A DNA stretch of 33,728 nucleotides from Ruminiclostridium sp. (GTDB lineage Bacteria > Bacillota > Clostridia > Oscillospirales > Ruminococcaceae), in assembly GCA_017941355.1 (NCBI GenBank), contig JAGAWN010000123.1, positions 1 to 33,728 of the forward strand, in the 5' to 3' direction. The first letter of the stretch is position 1. Each line of letters starts with the position of its first letter. Below the pieces are notes generated by a model, which worked only from the letters and a program-made list of their open reading frames with translations, was not told the DNA's origin and searched no databases. Of the stretch, positions 18,199 to 28,879 are shown in pieces. Position numbers and translations under genes: made by a program.

Positions 18199-18607
18199 GT
18201 CCGTGTCTCTGCCGAACGCTTTAGATCTTCTGAAAACTCCGGACTGCGGGGCAGAAAAAGCCGCCCGTTACTGAAAAGTAACGAGCGGTAAAACGGGCGA
18301 ATGCCCGTGTCTCTGTCTAACGTTTTAGATGTTACTCCGGACAGCGGGGCAGAAAAAGCCGCCCGTTACTGAAAAGTAACGAGCGGCAAAACGGGCGAAT
18401 GCCCGTGTCTCTGCCGAACGCTTTAGATGTTACTCCGGACTGCGGGGCAGAAAAAGCCGCCCGTTACTGAAAAGTAACGAGCGGCAAAACGGACGAATGC
18501 CCGTGTCTCTGTCTAACGCTTTAGATTTTTTGAAAACTCCGGACTGCGGGGCAGAAAAAGCCGCCCGTTACTGAAAAGTAACGAGCGGCAAAACGGGCGA
18601 ATGCCCG
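18199..18607 (-). repeat. Tandem array of terminator-bearing repeats downstream of tRNA-Leu
   Basis: Four nearly identical copies, with the shared CAGAAAAAGCCGCCCG motif at 18252, 18350, 18448 and 18552 (periods 98, 98 and 104), plus a partial unit at 18199-18250. Read on the minus strand, each unit has a small hairpin (CGGGCATTCGCCCG), then a 13-pair hairpin with loop TTTC and a T run: a complete intrinsic terminator. The array starts directly at the CCA end of the tRNA gene. Copies differ by only a few bases, indicating recent duplication. The rest of 18117-18198 holds only a short CCGCGG palindrome (18179-18195). Confidence 0.88.
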
Positions 18608-18690
18608 TGGTGCGGGTAACAGGAGTTGAACCTGCACGGTTGCCCACCGGAACCTAAATCCGGCGCGTCTGCCAATTCCGCCATACCCGC
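18608..18690 (-). tRNA. tRNA-Leu (anticodon UAG), CCA encoded
   Basis: The minus strand reads GCGGGTA (18690-18684) paired with TACCCGC, then A and an encoded CCA. The anticodon stem CCGGA/TCCGG encloses TTTAGGT, giving anticodon UAG, which reads CUN leucine codons. The T arm has the GGTTCAA sequence. The long variable arm (around TGGGCAACCG) is the class II feature of leucine tRNAs. Length is 83 bases with CCA. Confidence 0.95.
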
Positions 18691-18792: not shown

Positions 18793-21318
18793 TTATGCCG
18801 TAACTATCTTGTTTGCGCTGTGCAGACCGAGCTTTTCGACTGCCTGTTCGCGCATCTTGTATTTGAGGATCTTTCCGGCTGCGTTCATCGGGAATTCGTC
18901 AACAAAGTCAACATACCTCGGTACTTTATGCTTTGCCATGTGATCGAGAACGAACTGTTTGATCTCTTCCTCAGATGAAGTTTCACCGTCGTTGAGGATT
19001 ATGCAAGCCATGATCTCTTCGCCGTAGTCCTTATCCGGAACACCGATGACTTGAACATCCTTTACTTTCGGGTGAGTGTAGAGGAAGTCCTCGATCTCTT
19101 TCGGGTAGATGTTCTCACCGCCGCGGATTATCATATCCTTGATACGTCCGGTGATCTTATAGTATCCGTCGGAGGAGCGGCGTCTTGCAAGGTCGCCTGT
19201 ATGCAGCCAGCCCTCGGAATCTATCGCCGCCGCGGTCGCTTCGGGCATCTTGTAGTAGCCCTTCATTATATTGTATCCGCGTGCTACGAACTCGCCGTCA
19301 GTATCGTCCGGCAGATCCTCGTTTGTTTCGGGATCAACGATCTTGCACTCAACACCGAATATCGGTCCGCCGACAGTGTTCACGCGCTGCTCGATAGAGT
19401 CTGTGGTCTTTGACATCGTGGTGGCGGGAGAAGCTTCGGTCTGACCGTAGGTAATGCAGATCTCGCTCATGTGCATCTTCTCGATGACTTCTTCCATAGT
19501 CTTGATAGGGCAGGGGGAGCCGGCCATGATACCTGTTCTCATGTGCGAGAAGTCTGTAGTCGGGAAGTTCTCATTGTTGAGCATAGCAATAAACATGGTC
19601 GGAACACCGTGGAAGCAGGTTATCTTCTCTTTGTTTATGCAGTTGAGTCCCTTGCGGGGCGAGAATGCCGGGATAGGCGACATTGTAACTCCGTGGGTAA
19701 CAGAGGCTGTCATTGCAAGCACCATACCGAAGCAATGGAACATAGGAACCTGTATCATCATTCTGTCGGCAGTTGATAAGTCCATGCAGTCGCCGATAGC
19801 CTTGCCGTTGTTGACAACATTGTAGTGTGTGAGCATTACACCTTTCGGGAATCCTGTCGTTCCGGAGGTGTACTGCATATTTGCAACATCGTCTTTATTG
19901 ATAGTGCGGCGGAACTTCTCAACCTCGCTGTAGGGAACTTCGGAAGCCTTGGCGTTAGCTTCCTCCCATGTGTAAGCACCGGGCATCTCGAAGCCGTCTG
20001 TTATGATGTTTTTCAGTACAGGCAGACGCTTGGAGCTGAGCTTGCCTTTTTCGCAGCTGTCAAGTTCGGGACATATCTCGCGGATTATCTCCTTGTAGTT
20101 GCTGTCCTTATAGCTGTCGATCATAACGAGAGTGTGAGTGTCGGACTGACGGAGCAGATACTCTGTTTCGTGTATTTTGTAAGCGGTATTGACAGTAACA
20201 AGAACCGCGCCTATCTTTGTGGTAGCCCAGAAAGTGATGTACCATGACGGAACATTGGTTGCCCAGATAGCCACATGATCGCCCTTTTTCACACCCATTG
20301 CGATGAGCGCGCGTGCGAAGTTGTCAACATCGTCACGGAACTCGGGGTATGTTCTTGTGTAGTCAAGCTCGGTATAGCGGAAAGCGTACTGATTCGGGAA
20401 TTCCTCGCATACGCGGTCAAGAACGTCCGGGAATGTGTAGTTTATCAGGCGCTCCTTAGGCCAGATGTACTTGCCTGCCTTGCGGTTGTCGTCCTGGAGC
20501 GGGTGCTTGTGGTGAACGTGATAAGGTGCCATGAAGTTTGCAAAGTGGGGGACAACGATACCGGCATCGCAAAGCTCGTTTGACCAGCGCTTTACCCATT
20601 CGAGAGTAACGTAACCGCCATAGTTTATGCTTCTGAGAGCTTCGAGGATATCCTTTATCGGCATATCGCCCTCGCCCATGAGTTTGTATTCCAGCTTTCC
20701 GTTATTGTAGGTGCTGTCCTTGATGTGAGTATATTTGATGTGTTCTCCGAGATTTGCGACTGTTGTTTCGGGCTTTTCACCAGTGAATCTGTAGGGGTGG
20801 TGGGTATCCCAGAGCGCGCCGACTTTACGGCTTCCCACAGCTTCAAGCACCTTGCACAGACGTTTTGTATCGCAGTAATCACCGTTTGTCTCGACAAGCA
20901 GAGTAACGTTGTATTCCTCGGCAAGAACTGCAAGTTCTTTCAGTTCCGAAATAACAAATTCGTCGTCAACAAGACCGGAGGGTGCAAGTCCGTCGTCCGC
21001 GAGGATACGAACGAACTGAGTTCCCATTTTACTTGCAAGCTTCATGTATTCGATTATTTCTGTCTTGTTTTCGGCAGATTTCTCCTTGAAGCGAAGAGTT
21101 GCGCCGGACGAGAAGCATGAGATCTCAAGTCCGAGACTGTTCAGCTTTGCGATAGTTGCGGGGAGCTGCTTTTCCGTAAACGGCTTTGCCTTGACAGAGA
21201 AAATGTCGTTTCCGAGACCGCGCATCTCGATTCCGTCGAAGTTCAGGTCTTTAGCCATTGAGTAGATGTCCGACCATTCAAAATCGGCACAGGCGAGAGT
21301 TGAGAAGCTTAATTTCAT
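18793..21318 (-). CDS. Fusion of a xylose-isomerase-like TIM barrel and an AMP-forming acyl-CoA synthetase
   Basis: 841 residues in one uninterrupted frame. Residues 1-265 form a sugar phosphate isomerase/epimerase-like TIM barrel with metal ligands in VETN (Glu143), WDTHH (Asp171), THIKD (His198) and LEWV (Glu240). Residues about 290-841 form an acyl-CoA synthetase: YTSGTTGFPKGVMLTH (483-498), YGQTEASP, GWLHTGDLARR, GRIKDMIIRGGENIYPKEIE and the C-terminal catalytic lysine in NAAGKILKYK. This half activates a carboxylic acid with ATP and joins it to CoA. The ATG at 21318 has GGAGG about ten bases upstream; an in-frame extension to 21429 reads through the T-box terminator and is not real. A T-box leader controls it. 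The substrates of both halves are unknown. Confidence 0.92.
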   Translation of the reverse strand: MKLSFSTLACADFEWSDIYSMAKDLNFDGIEMRGLGNDIFSVKAKPFTEKQLPATIAKLNSLGLEISCFSSGATLRFKEKSAENKTEIIEYMKLASKMGTQFVRILADDGLAPSGLVDDEFVISELKELAVLAEEYNVTLLVETNGDYCDTKRLCKVLEAVGSRKVGALWDTHHPYRFTGEKPETTVANLGEHIKYTHIKDSTYNNGKLEYKLMGEGDMPIKDILEALRSINYGGYVTLEWVKRWSNELCDAGIVVPHFANFMAPYHVHHKHPLQDDNRKAGKYIWPKERLINYTFPDVLDRVCEEFPNQYAFRYTELDYTRTYPEFRDDVDNFARALIAMGVKKGDHVAIWATNVPSWYITFWATTKIGAVLVTVNTAYKIHETEYLLRQSDTHTLVMIDSYKDSNYKEIIREICPELDSCEKGKLSSKRLPVLKNIITDGFEMPGAYTWEEANAKASEVPYSEVEKFRRTINKDDVANMQYTSGTTGFPKGVMLTHYNVVNNGKAIGDCMDLSTADRMMIQVPMFHCFGMVLAMTASVTHGVTMSPIPAFSPRKGLNCINKEKITCFHGVPTMFIAMLNNENFPTTDFSHMRTGIMAGSPCPIKTMEEVIEKMHMSEICITYGQTEASPATTMSKTTDSIEQRVNTVGGPIFGVECKIVDPETNEDLPDDTDGEFVARGYNIMKGYYKMPEATAAAIDSEGWLHTGDLARRRSSDGYYKITGRIKDMIIRGGENIYPKEIEDFLYTHPKVKDVQVIGVPDKDYGEEIMACIILNDGETSSEEEIKQFVLDHMAKHKVPRYVDFVDEFPMNAAGKILKYKMREQAVEKLGLHSANKIVTA

Positions 21319-21370
21319 TTGTTTTTCCTCCTTAAATGAAACTGTGGGTTTCGGACGGCTTTTAAAAAAT

Positions 21371-21625
21371 AAAAAACCGTCCCAAAGAATTTCTTTGAGA
21401 CGGGAATAAACATATACCCGCGGTACCACTCAAATTGCGCATAAACGCGCCACCTCAGGCTCCAATAAGCCTTATGCCTTAACGCGGCAGAACGGGAAAC
21501 ACTACTTGAAACTTCGTTCACATTTCCGACTCGGAAGGGAGCTGTCCTGGTATGTCCGCTGCCGTTTCGCATCACCCAACGGCTTTCTGAAAACATTCAT
21601 ACCGACGATCTTCGTCATAGTCATT
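21371..21625 (-). promoter_or_regulatory. T-box riboswitch leader
   Basis: On the minus strand the leader holds the T-box core TGGTACCGCGGG (21428-21417), which can pair with the NCCA end of an uncharged tRNA, followed by a terminator stem (21403-21391 with 21389-21377) and six T (21376-21371). Upstream a Stem I-like hairpin is formed by GGTATG and CATACC around an inner CCGTT/AACGG apical hairpin with a GGTGATGCG loop. I cannot assign the specifier codon safely: the candidate bulge after CATACC reads AGGACAGCTCC. The next gene is the fusion enzyme, starting 53 bases after the terminator. The T-box motif is observed; regulation by an amino acid follows from the class. Confidence 0.9.
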
Positions 21626-25901: not shown

Positions 25902-26071
25902 AACATTAAAAACCGGTGTTCCCTGACATTGGGAAAAATACTGAAAAAAATCAAATTTGTAGAAATATACAATTATTTTTTTTGATTCTGCGTTAATTGA
26001 TCGTCTTTTAAAACTCTATGAATAATAATGTAAAAACATAGTTATAATTGTGGCATAAGGAGGAACTTTGT

Positions 26072-28879
26072 ATGTCAAAAACACTCGATTGGAGCAAGTA
26101 TGTCGAAGCAGCTGTGCAGACAGTCTCGGAGGGCGTGGTACTTCTGAAAAATGAGAATCATGCTCTTCCGCTTGACAAATCGGAAAACACGGCAGTATTC
26201 GGCAGAATACAGCTCCACTATTACAAGAGCGGTACAGGCTCCGGCGGAATGGTGAATGTATCAAAGGTAGTCGGCATAACCGACGGTCTTATCGAAGCGG
26301 GAGCGAAGATAAACGAAACGCTTCTTGAAACCTATAAAGCGTGGGATAAGGAAAACCCGTTTGACATGGGTGAGGGCTGGGGCGGTGAACCCTGGTCACA
26401 GAAGGAAATGCCTCTTGATGACGATGTTGTTAAAGCTGCTGCGGCGGAAAGCGTCAGCGCGGTAGCGGTCATCGGAAGAACTGCCGGCGAGGAGCAGGAC
26501 AACAAGCTTGAAAAAGGCTCCTACTACCTTACCGATGCCGAATTGGATATGCTGAAAAAAATCCGTAAGCATTTCGGGAAAATGACCGTGCTGCTCAATA
26601 TCGGCGGCATAATAGACCTGTCGTTCATGGACAGTCCCGAAACTGCTCCGGACGCGCTTATGATCGTTTGGCAGGGCGGAATGGTCGGCGGGACGGGAAC
26701 AGCCCGCGTGCTGCTCGGTGAAGTCTCGCCCAGCGGAAAGCTTCCCGATACGATAGCTTACAATGTATCCGATCACGCGTCAGACAGGAACTTCGGCGCA
26801 CCGGACAAGTGCATCTACGCCGAGGATATCTATGTTGGTTACAGGTACTTTGAGACGTTCGCAAAGGATAAGGTGCGTTATCCGTTCGGATTCGGCTTGT
26901 CATACACGGATTTCTCGATTGTATGCGATAAAGCTGAACTTAATGAGAACGGGGAAGTCGAGATACATCTGACGGTAAAGAACATCGGCGGAAAATACAG
27001 CGGAAAACAGGTAGTGCAGCTGTATTACGAAGCTCCGCAGGGAAAACTCGGAAAGCCGGCGCGTGTTCTTCGCGCTTTCAGGAAAACCGGGACTCTCGCT
27101 CCCGGTGAAAGTCAGACACTCTCATTTTTTGCGCACCCGGACTCACTTAACTCATACGATGATTCGGGAAAGACTGGTTTCAGGGACAGCTTTGTTGTAG
27201 AAGCCGGAAAGTACAATATGTATGTCGGAACAGATGTCCGGACAGCGGAAAAGTGTTTTTCTTTCGATATTGACGAGACAAGAAAAGCCGGAAAATATAC
27301 CGGAATTCCATACAGGCACAACGACGGGCAGCAGCTTCTCGCACCGCACACCGCGTTTGAACGCATTCTTCCTGTCGCTGAAGGTGAAGGCTATTCCGAG
27401 GGCAGCGAACCTGTGCCATTGAACGAGATCGACACCGACGCAATAATTGCGGCAAACCTGCCCGCCGAGATACCTCAGACAGGCGATAAGGGCATAAAAC
27501 TCGCCGACGTAAAGAGCGGAAAGAACACAATGGACGAGTTTATCGCGCAGCTCTCCGACAATGACCTTGCCTGCATTATCCGCGGCGAGGGTATGGGCAG
27601 CCCGAAGGTAACTCCGGGTACTACATCTGCATTTGCCGGAGTTTCGCAGTCACTTATCGACTTCGGCATACCGAGCTGCTGCACATCTGACGGTCCGTCG
27701 GGAATGAGACTGGACTGCGGTACAAAAGCGTTCAGCCTTCCGAACGGAACTCTTATCGCTTCCACGTTCAACACAGAACTTGTGTATGAGCTGTTCTCGC
27801 TTGCGGGACTTGAAATAGCGTACAACAAGGTCGATTGCCTGCTGGGACCCGGAATGAACATTCACCGTCACCCGCTCAACGGGCGCAATTTCGAGTATTT
27901 CTCGGAGGATCCGCTGCTGTGCGGAGAAATGGCGGCACATGAGCTTGCCGGCTTGCAGTCTGCGGGAGTAACCGGTACGATCAAGCATTTCTGCTGCAAC
28001 AATCAGGAACTAAACCGCCACTTCCTCGACTCGATAGTATCGGAAAGGGCGCTTCGCGAGATATATATCAGAGGCTTTCAGATCGCAGTGAAGAAGGGAA
28101 ATGCCAAGACCATAATGACCACCTACGGTTCGCTGAACGGAGTGTGGACAGCGGGCAACTACGAACTCAACACTATGCTGCTGCGTGACGACTGGCATTA
28201 CGACGGAGTTACCATGACTGACTGGTGGGCGAATATCAACCGCCGCGGAAACGCCCCGGACAAGAAAGATTTTGCTGCAATGGCGCGTGCGCAGAATGAT
28301 ATGTACATGGTATGCACCGACGGAGCGAACAACGATGACAACACGCTTGAAATGCTTGCTGCCGGAAAACTCACACGCGGGGAACTGCAAAGGAACGCTG
28401 CGAATATATGCAGGTTTGCAATGAACACCCGTGCAATGGACAGACTTCTCGGCTGTGCGGAGGAAGTTGAGATAATCGGCAGACCAAAAGAAGACGATGA
28501 TGTAACGAACGAGAATGTCGAGGTATTCGTACTCGACAGCGAAGTCACCGTTCCGCTGGGAGACGCGGCTGCAACAAAGGGTTCAAGTTATGTGTTCGTA
28601 CTTGATGTGAAGCACTTCGGAGAGTTTGATGTTGAAATGACGGCAAGCTCCGAAAGCGGAGAACTCGCGCAGATTCCGGTAACGATGTTTGTACTTGGTA
28701 TCGCGTGGAGCAATTTCACATTTAACGGCACCGGCGGTAAACCGGTAACGATACCGCGAACGACACAGTTCTACTCGCGTTACACAACTGTTCGTCTGTA
28801 CTTTGCGCAGAACGGACTGAAACCTGAGAGTATAAGGTTTAAGCTCAAAAGGGAAGGGAAGACTTTCACAGATGGATGA
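26072..28879 (+). CDS. Beta-glucosidase, glycoside hydrolase family 3, permuted domain order
   Basis: 935 residues with no signal peptide, so cytoplasmic. The usual GH3 order is reversed: the C-terminal-type alpha/beta sandwich comes first (residues about 15-280, with LLKNENHALPL and ending PFGFGLSYTDF), then a fibronectin-like domain (about 290-400), and last the TIM barrel (about 470-790) with SDGPSGMR, the KHF-type loop GTIKHFCCNNQE and the nucleophile Asp717 in MTDWW. This inverted layout is known from Ruminococcus albus beta-glucosidase. It hydrolyses cello-oligosaccharides or aryl-glucosides from plant fibre. The ATG at 26072 has GGAGG eight bases upstream. It overlaps the Nudix gene by eight bases. 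Confidence 0.93.
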   Translation: MSKTLDWSKYVEAAVQTVSEGVVLLKNENHALPLDKSENTAVFGRIQLHYYKSGTGSGGMVNVSKVVGITDGLIEAGAKINETLLETYKAWDKENPFDMGEGWGGEPWSQKEMPLDDDVVKAAAAESVSAVAVIGRTAGEEQDNKLEKGSYYLTDAELDMLKKIRKHFGKMTVLLNIGGIIDLSFMDSPETAPDALMIVWQGGMVGGTGTARVLLGEVSPSGKLPDTIAYNVSDHASDRNFGAPDKCIYAEDIYVGYRYFETFAKDKVRYPFGFGLSYTDFSIVCDKAELNENGEVEIHLTVKNIGGKYSGKQVVQLYYEAPQGKLGKPARVLRAFRKTGTLAPGESQTLSFFAHPDSLNSYDDSGKTGFRDSFVVEAGKYNMYVGTDVRTAEKCFSFDIDETRKAGKYTGIPYRHNDGQQLLAPHTAFERILPVAEGEGYSEGSEPVPLNEIDTDAIIAANLPAEIPQTGDKGIKLADVKSGKNTMDEFIAQLSDNDLACIIRGEGMGSPKVTPGTTSAFAGVSQSLIDFGIPSCCTSDGPSGMRLDCGTKAFSLPNGTLIASTFNTELVYELFSLAGLEIAYNKVDCLLGPGMNIHRHPLNGRNFEYFSEDPLLCGEMAAHELAGLQSAGVTGTIKHFCCNNQELNRHFLDSIVSERALREIYIRGFQIAVKKGNAKTIMTTYGSLNGVWTAGNYELNTMLLRDDWHYDGVTMTDWWANINRRGNAPDKKDFAAMARAQNDMYMVCTDGANNDDNTLEMLAAGKLTRGELQRNAANICRFAMNTRAMDRLLGCAEEVEIIGRPKEDDDVTNENVEVFVLDSEVTVPLGDAAATKGSSYVFVLDVKHFGEFDVEMTASSESGELAQIPVTMFVLGIAWSNFTFNGTGGKPVTIPRTTQFYSRYTTVRLYFAQNGLKPESIRFKLKREGKTFTDG

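Follow-up and report, generated by a model that had tools for sequence, protein, structure and literature searches.

Why does a T-box leader RNA precede a gene for a TIM-barrel/acyl-CoA ligase fusion in the window, a stretch of 33,728 nucleotides from a Ruminiclostridium sp. genome? The first-pass annotation of this DNA had offered two answers, namely that an amino-acid-related acid is a product or substrate of the enzyme, or that the leader was recruited by rearrangement. The former is supported here and can be narrowed to leucine, given that the readable specifiers are Leu and that the ligase clusters or co-occurs with VOR and IlvE. We propose, with a probability of about three in four, that a Leu T-box controls an acyl-CoA ligase predicted to activate isovalerate (3-methylbutanoate) to feed leucine synthesis. 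The basis seen in the sequence consists of the leader, its Leu specifier, the terminator, the ligase domains, the recurrence of the T-box-ligase pair and its co-occurrence with VOR.

The leader RNA and the fusion gene of the window

The unit lies on the minus strand in the order promoter (21660-21632), T-box (21627-21393), terminator (21403-21377) and fusion gene (ATG at 21318 to stop at 18793, stop included), and the T-box core, terminator and promoter reported earlier are borne out. The promoter, found by motif search, is of the sigma-70 type (TTGACA-17-TATTAT, 11 of 12 positions matching), with one such match found against a mean of 0.6 in shuffled sequences. The T-box is matched by the Rfam covariance model RF00230 over its full length (1-219 of 219), with an E-value of 5.5e-20 in the window and a score of 95.6 bits, which is only slightly above the gathering cutoff of 93 bits that sets membership. 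The intrinsic terminator, identified by motif search and folding, is a stem-loop of 12 pairs followed by the T run TTTTTTATTT (one found, shuffle mean 0.4), and its segment folds with -18.2 kcal/mol (z -5.4). The antiterminator (21393..21434, from the RF00230 alignment and folding; -11.9 kcal/mol, z -1.4) has CCGUCUCAAAG in common with the terminator; sequence and folds reveal a UGGN bulge and an antiterminator that excludes the terminator, as expected of a T-box. The fold of the whole leader beats shuffled sequences modestly (z -1.85); the T-box identity is based on the covariance-model score and on conservation rather than on this fold.

The covariance search that the first-pass annotation had recommended for fixing the specifier places CUC (Leu; 21539..21541) under the specifier column, and a rule that makes no assumption on the codon selects the same triplet. 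It lies in Stem I, adjoining GAAG/CUUC, and is followed by C, a position at which A or G is commoner across the leader set. A matching tRNA-Leu(GAG) with an ACCA end is encoded in the genome (located using RF00005 and ARAGORN, two DNA patterns having missed it) and fits both the CUC and the UGGU contacts; the UGGU of the T-box bulge (21425..21428) is expected to pair with the tRNA ACCA, where the discriminator is A. We regard the T-box and its leucine specificity as nearly certain. The same genome has two further T-boxes at an E-value of 0.001, preceding a trpE-like gene (UGG) and a flavodoxin-like/ileS pair (AUC), the genes being named by eye, and a close variant of the rule assigns them to Trp and Ile.

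The ORF encodes 841 residues, and its ATG stands behind AAGGAGG, 74 nt past the Rfam match and 58 nt past the terminator stem, against the 53 bases given in the first-pass annotation. The alternative GTG at 21429 (mechanical ORF, 878 aa) begins within the T-box and is an unlikely start. Domain searches bear out the fusion of a barrel with an AMP-forming CoA ligase, identifying a xylose-isomerase-like TIM barrel (AP_endonuc_2, PF01261; residues 22-244, positions 20587..21255), AMP-binding (PF00501; residues 301-689, 19252..20418) and AMP-binding_C (PF13193; residues 741-816, 18871..19098), all on the minus strand. Both ligase domains score above gathering cutoffs, and a TSGTTGxPKG motif and a C-terminal lysine, which we take to be acyl-CoA synthetase motifs, are present. 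The best NCBIfam model among the 25 of 114 listed, NF009233 (fatty acid CoA ligase, PRK12583), scores 691 bits, below its cutoff of 832. In a PDB sequence search, the best 60 of 238 matches are ligases, luciferases and peptide synthetases that all align to the ligase part, and none of these 60 aligns to the barrel.

A tRNA-Leu with anticodon UAG (18608-18690, minus strand) follows the fusion stop in the same orientation at a distance of about 100 nt, probably by chance, and is adjoined by a direct repeat in which a unit of roughly 100 nt occurs four times (18201-18609), the copies being 75-95% alike to the reference copy. Farther away, the plus strand encodes a glycoside hydrolase family 3 protein whose C-terminal domain precedes the N-terminal domain (26048-28879).

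Spread of the ligase and of its T-boxes

A homologue search of 119 genomes of the family (E-value 1e-100) found the ligase in 44, including that of the window. These comprise 17 first-group fusions, of which the 16 others are 67 to 79% identical to the window protein (one, G077, being matched over residues 1-464 only, at a contig end), five second-group fusions (55 to 59%), 21 barrel-less standalone ligases (54 to 61%) and one fragment (G037, 49%). A T-box precedes the ligase or its operon in 29 of the 44: in 20 of the 21 standalone ligases (one partial, at 25 bits, in G070, where the leader is cut by a contig end), in four of the five second-group fusions, where a LeuA-like gene stands between it and the fusion, and in five of the 17 first-group fusions. 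Some of these leaders fall under the RF00230 cutoff with E-values of 1e-14 or below (for example, L013 at 82.1, L025 at 76.7, L176 at 89.5 and L177 at 80.2 bits).

The first-pass annotation had advised looking for the same leader before orthologous fusions; it is present in five first-group members and missing from the remaining 12, one of the same genus, in which an Rfam search at an E-value of 0.5 found no T-box within 1.5 kb upstream (0.4 kb in one). This negative result argues against the motif search having overlooked a T-box at those 12 loci, and for five of the T-box-less fusions (L122-L126) no T-box core was found farther upstream in larger stretches. Similarly, the Rfam search found no T-box upstream of the ligase in G036, G037 and G079, and no T-box core was found upstream of the Ruminococcus flavefaciens ATCC 19208 gene (L088). 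The first-pass annotation had named, as evidence against its reading, orthologues lacking the T-box together with a tRNA synthetase next to this leader in close relatives; the former is seen in the 12 fusions, but the synthetase-like genes found nearby sit behind other leaders. A valyl-tRNA-synthetase-like gene in L083 follows a separate T-box core encoded on the other strand from the Leu unit (7333 in reversed coordinates). In L050, where the fusion itself has no T-box, one located 7 kb upstream carries a Pro specifier and precedes a prolyl-tRNA-synthetase-like gene; both genes were named by eye. About 800 nt upstream of another T-box-less fusion, with a small ORF between, is a c-di-GMP-I riboswitch (L018:613-695).

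Applied to 48 leaders, the codon-agnostic rule returned Leu alone for 42, ties including Leu for two (L070 and L083) and no solution for four (L034, L069, L075 and L086), which read CUC by eye. Among the 29 T-boxes of the family genomes 28 are readable and all 28 read Leu, 25 by the rule and three by eye from the Rfam alignment (L175-L177); the Leu leader of G105 was identified by its core motif only. The scoring used for part of the family genomes, for the Ile and Val sets and for the MbcS-like loci described below differs slightly from that used for the 48 leaders.

A second collection of 80 named loci from GTDB genomes, in which T-boxes were identified by the core motif and Rfam was applied to two loci, has a T-box core directly ahead of the ligase in 14 and of the LeuA-like gene in 21, several loci being cut upstream by contig ends (for example, L035, L045, L099 and L111). 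The named loci partly coincide with the family genomes (L073 and G064, for example, have contigs of equal length), so the two sets cannot be treated as independent. In a tree of 92 ligases, whose standalone rows are the nine with loci from the homologue search, T-box bearers occur to either side of the midpoint root and belong to records of several families, and this scatter suits an old association with losses. One fusion from a record titled Salinivirgaceae (L112, Bacteroidota) falls among Bacillota sequences on the tree and may reflect transfer or a mis-binned contig. Directly after three standalone ligases lies a protein-kinase-like gene with a PASTA domain (L026:3224-4657, L028:3196-4665, L032:3206-4672).

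Operon neighbours and the predicted route to leucine

In L062 and L095 the operon order is T-box, LeuA-like, fusion, IlvE, CooC-like, VorB, VorA, VorC, XRE-cupin and MbcS-like ligase, that of L095 being assigned by similarity to L062. In L062, IlvE and VorB score above their cutoffs (NF009897, 507 against 307 bits; NF005507, 537 against 399 bits), and the last gene is termed MbcS-like because this protein, the sole one scanned, stays below the cutoff of NF047394 (411 against 850 bits). L113 has the gene order of L062, but no T-box core was found ahead of the operon. VOR genes lie within or beside the ligase operon in six of the 80 named loci (L062, L082, L095, L102, L106 and L113), and likewise in G105 and G079; ligase, VOR and aminotransferase are encoded together in four of the 80 (L062, L095, L102 and L113). 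Twelve of the 80, which gave no clean ORF, are outside the operon table.

The association with VOR extends to whole genomes: VorB is found in 39 of 44 ligase genomes against 24 of 75 others, and VorB with neither LeuC nor LeuB above cutoffs in 20 of 44 against one of 75 (p 1e-9 each, values that are too small because the genomes are related). Among 90 good-quality genomes, the latter combination occurs in 14 of 35 with the ligase and in none of 55 others. In each of the five second-group genomes VorB is present while LeuC and LeuB are missing above cutoffs; one of these genomes (G064) has a LeuA above cutoff. LeuA presence was dropped as a test since TIGR00973 puts the LeuA type of the window's genome below cutoff. 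Ligase bacteria with VorB and without LeuC and LeuB probably cannot use the isopropylmalate route, and a Leu T-box on a ligase beside VOR therefore reads naturally as a path from isovalerate to leucine. In the window's own genome, a gene of the LeuA type, which at 209 bits stays below the cutoff of TIGR00973, lies beside LeuC and LeuB on contig C29, so that the isovalerate route is not its sole leucine route; its VorBAC genes lie on contig C202, away from the fusion.

The following sequence of events would be consistent with these observations. On leucine shortage, uncharged tRNA-Leu(GAG) would pair with the CUC specifier and with UGGU, the antiterminator would form and the ligase would be made. 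The ligase would convert isovalerate, CoA and ATP to isovaleryl-CoA, VOR in its carboxylating direction would yield 2-ketoisocaproate, and IlvE would convert this to leucine; VorB is also able to run oxidatively. Leucine arising from isovalerate carboxylation is described for the rumen in an excerpt of PMC7356843.

The LeuA-like protein encoded directly ahead of the fusion gene (L062:7729-9138, L086:7682-9106 and relatives) no longer has a complete HxH metal motif in 27 of 28 cases, which argues against an active isopropylmalate synthase, and in L062 it scores 301 bits against the TIGR00973 cutoff of 598.7. The allosteric domain by which LeuA binds leucine (LeuA_dimer) is present in both LeuA-like proteins scanned and is well conserved (11 aligned). 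The conserved domain makes a leucine sensor a possible role for this partner. In the exception, L104, the order is T-box, fusion and LeuA, and the LeuA, here behind the fusion, has its motif intact. The LeuA-like partner, if catalytically dead, might dock on the fused TIM barrel, which is itself perhaps regulatory.

Two other uses of the ligase were weighed. Isovalerate or a longer iso-acid could be activated chiefly to prime the synthesis of iso-branched membrane lipids, with leucine sensed because its catabolism is the usual source of the primer; according to an excerpt of PMC10026030, MbcS of Staphylococcus aureus supplies branched fatty acid synthesis. Five of the 44 ligase genomes lack VorB above cutoff, in G084 perhaps owing to a broken assembly, and the other four (G032, G048, G100 and G109) would suit a primer. 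We nevertheless consider this use unlikely, as the recurrent operon partners are VOR, IlvE and the LeuA-like gene, no fatty acid synthesis gene was recognized in the recurring, partly annotated clusters, and the ligase is strongly tied to VorB and to the absence of LeuB and LeuC. The ligase might instead take another leucine-linked acid (such as isocaproate, a hydroxy acid or a keto acid) that the barrel and the LeuA-like protein would produce in a new leucine pathway, for which the broad retention of both, including Glu143 in 72 of 75 barrels, could speak. However, other positions of the barrel's metal site, as presumed by analogy with the superfamily, vary in the second-group members shown, the HxH motif is lost in nearly all LeuA-like proteins, and standalone ligases bear the same T-box with no barrel at all; this pathway appears quite improbable. 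That rearrangement merely set a T-box before an unrelated gene, as the patchy T-box presence among the closest relatives might suggest, is rejected as very improbable because the pair is conserved across genera. Leu T-boxes precede the ligase in records whose titles name Oscillospiraceae, Lachnospiraceae, Clostridiaceae, Peptococcaceae and Syntrophomonadaceae; a T-box is present in 29 of the 44 family genomes with the ligase and at nearly every standalone ligase; the bearers are scattered across the ligase tree; and every readable family leader specifies Leu.

Known systems and the isoleucine and valine T-boxes

Activation of isovalerate for leucine synthesis would place the locus close to older work. 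Allison and co-workers are said to have described, in 1962 and 1966, how ruminococci form leucine by carboxylating isovalerate, and studies of the 1960s reportedly identified branched-chain volatile fatty acids as growth factors for these bacteria. The predicted pathway and the habitat are the same here; the gene and its regulation are proposals from the present analysis. The isovalerate question of the 1960s becomes testable now that the activation step has a candidate gene whose regulator specifies the amino acid. If the proposal is correct, gut and rumen bacteria recycle waste isovalerate into leucine, carboxylic-acid salvage ligases join the T-box targets, and the gut bacteria that subsist on isoacids released by others could be predicted.

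As described in portions of PMC2494555 and PMC2700814, the ilv-leu leader of B. subtilis is a T-box with a CUC specifier and has leucine biosynthesis genes as targets. This leader and the leuA leaders of Geobacter, as far as the excerpted sources go, belong to the same RNA family and share with the window a target in leucine biosynthesis. The window target differs in being an acyl-CoA ligase predicted to salvage a carboxylic acid; it is neither an isopropylmalate-route gene nor a transporter or synthetase gene. In a limited search of the open literature, with two main T-box surveys outside it, no paper was found that links a T-box to these ligases, and the locus looks like a known RNA family with an apparently new target class.

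MbcS of S. aureus is likewise an AMP-forming ligase for short branched acids and, in an excerpt of PMC10026030, prefers 2-methylbutyrate and isobutyrate, which correspond to Ile and Val, and is poor on isovalerate. The fusion belongs to another ligase subfamily and is about 23-27% identical to MbcS-like proteins. In L107, L110, G105 and L103, the Leu unit has MbcS-like ligases as neighbours, each with an XRE-cupin part at its N terminus; one follows an Ile T-box (AUC) and one a Val T-box (GUA or GUC, tied with other triplets in L103). Since MbcS is poor on isovalerate, this acid would need another ligase; from the preference of MbcS and the Ile/Val set, regulation and context together would make the fusion the isovalerate ligase, leaving 2-methylbutyrate and isobutyrate to the MbcS-like ligases with Ile and Val leaders. 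As a tentative extension, which we hold to be less probable than its converse, the ligases for isovalerate, 2-methylbutyrate and isobutyrate would form a complete T-box salvage regulon, each governed by the T-box of the amino acid formed from its acid, and a catalytically dead 2-isopropylmalate synthase would be retained as a leucine-sensing regulatory partner of the enzyme for isovalerate.

Rfam detects three T-boxes in L110, with CUC, AUC and GUC in the specifier column, and three in L103 (97.5, 93.2 and a below-threshold 74.6 bits). Ligases of this type behind Ile or Val T-boxes are encoded at L103:12088-14352 and from L103:14708 onward, and also occur in L107, L110, L128 and L132. MbcS-like matches were found in 76 genomes, and a T-box core is present in 22 of the 30 MbcS-like loci examined; 19 of these 22 leaders read Ile (3 tied), and those of L133, L150 and L155 do not. 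In three relatives without the T-box (G117, G106 and G108), the fusion lies directly downstream of an MbcS-like gene on the same strand. L103 additionally harbors a THF riboswitch (L103:5335-5435).
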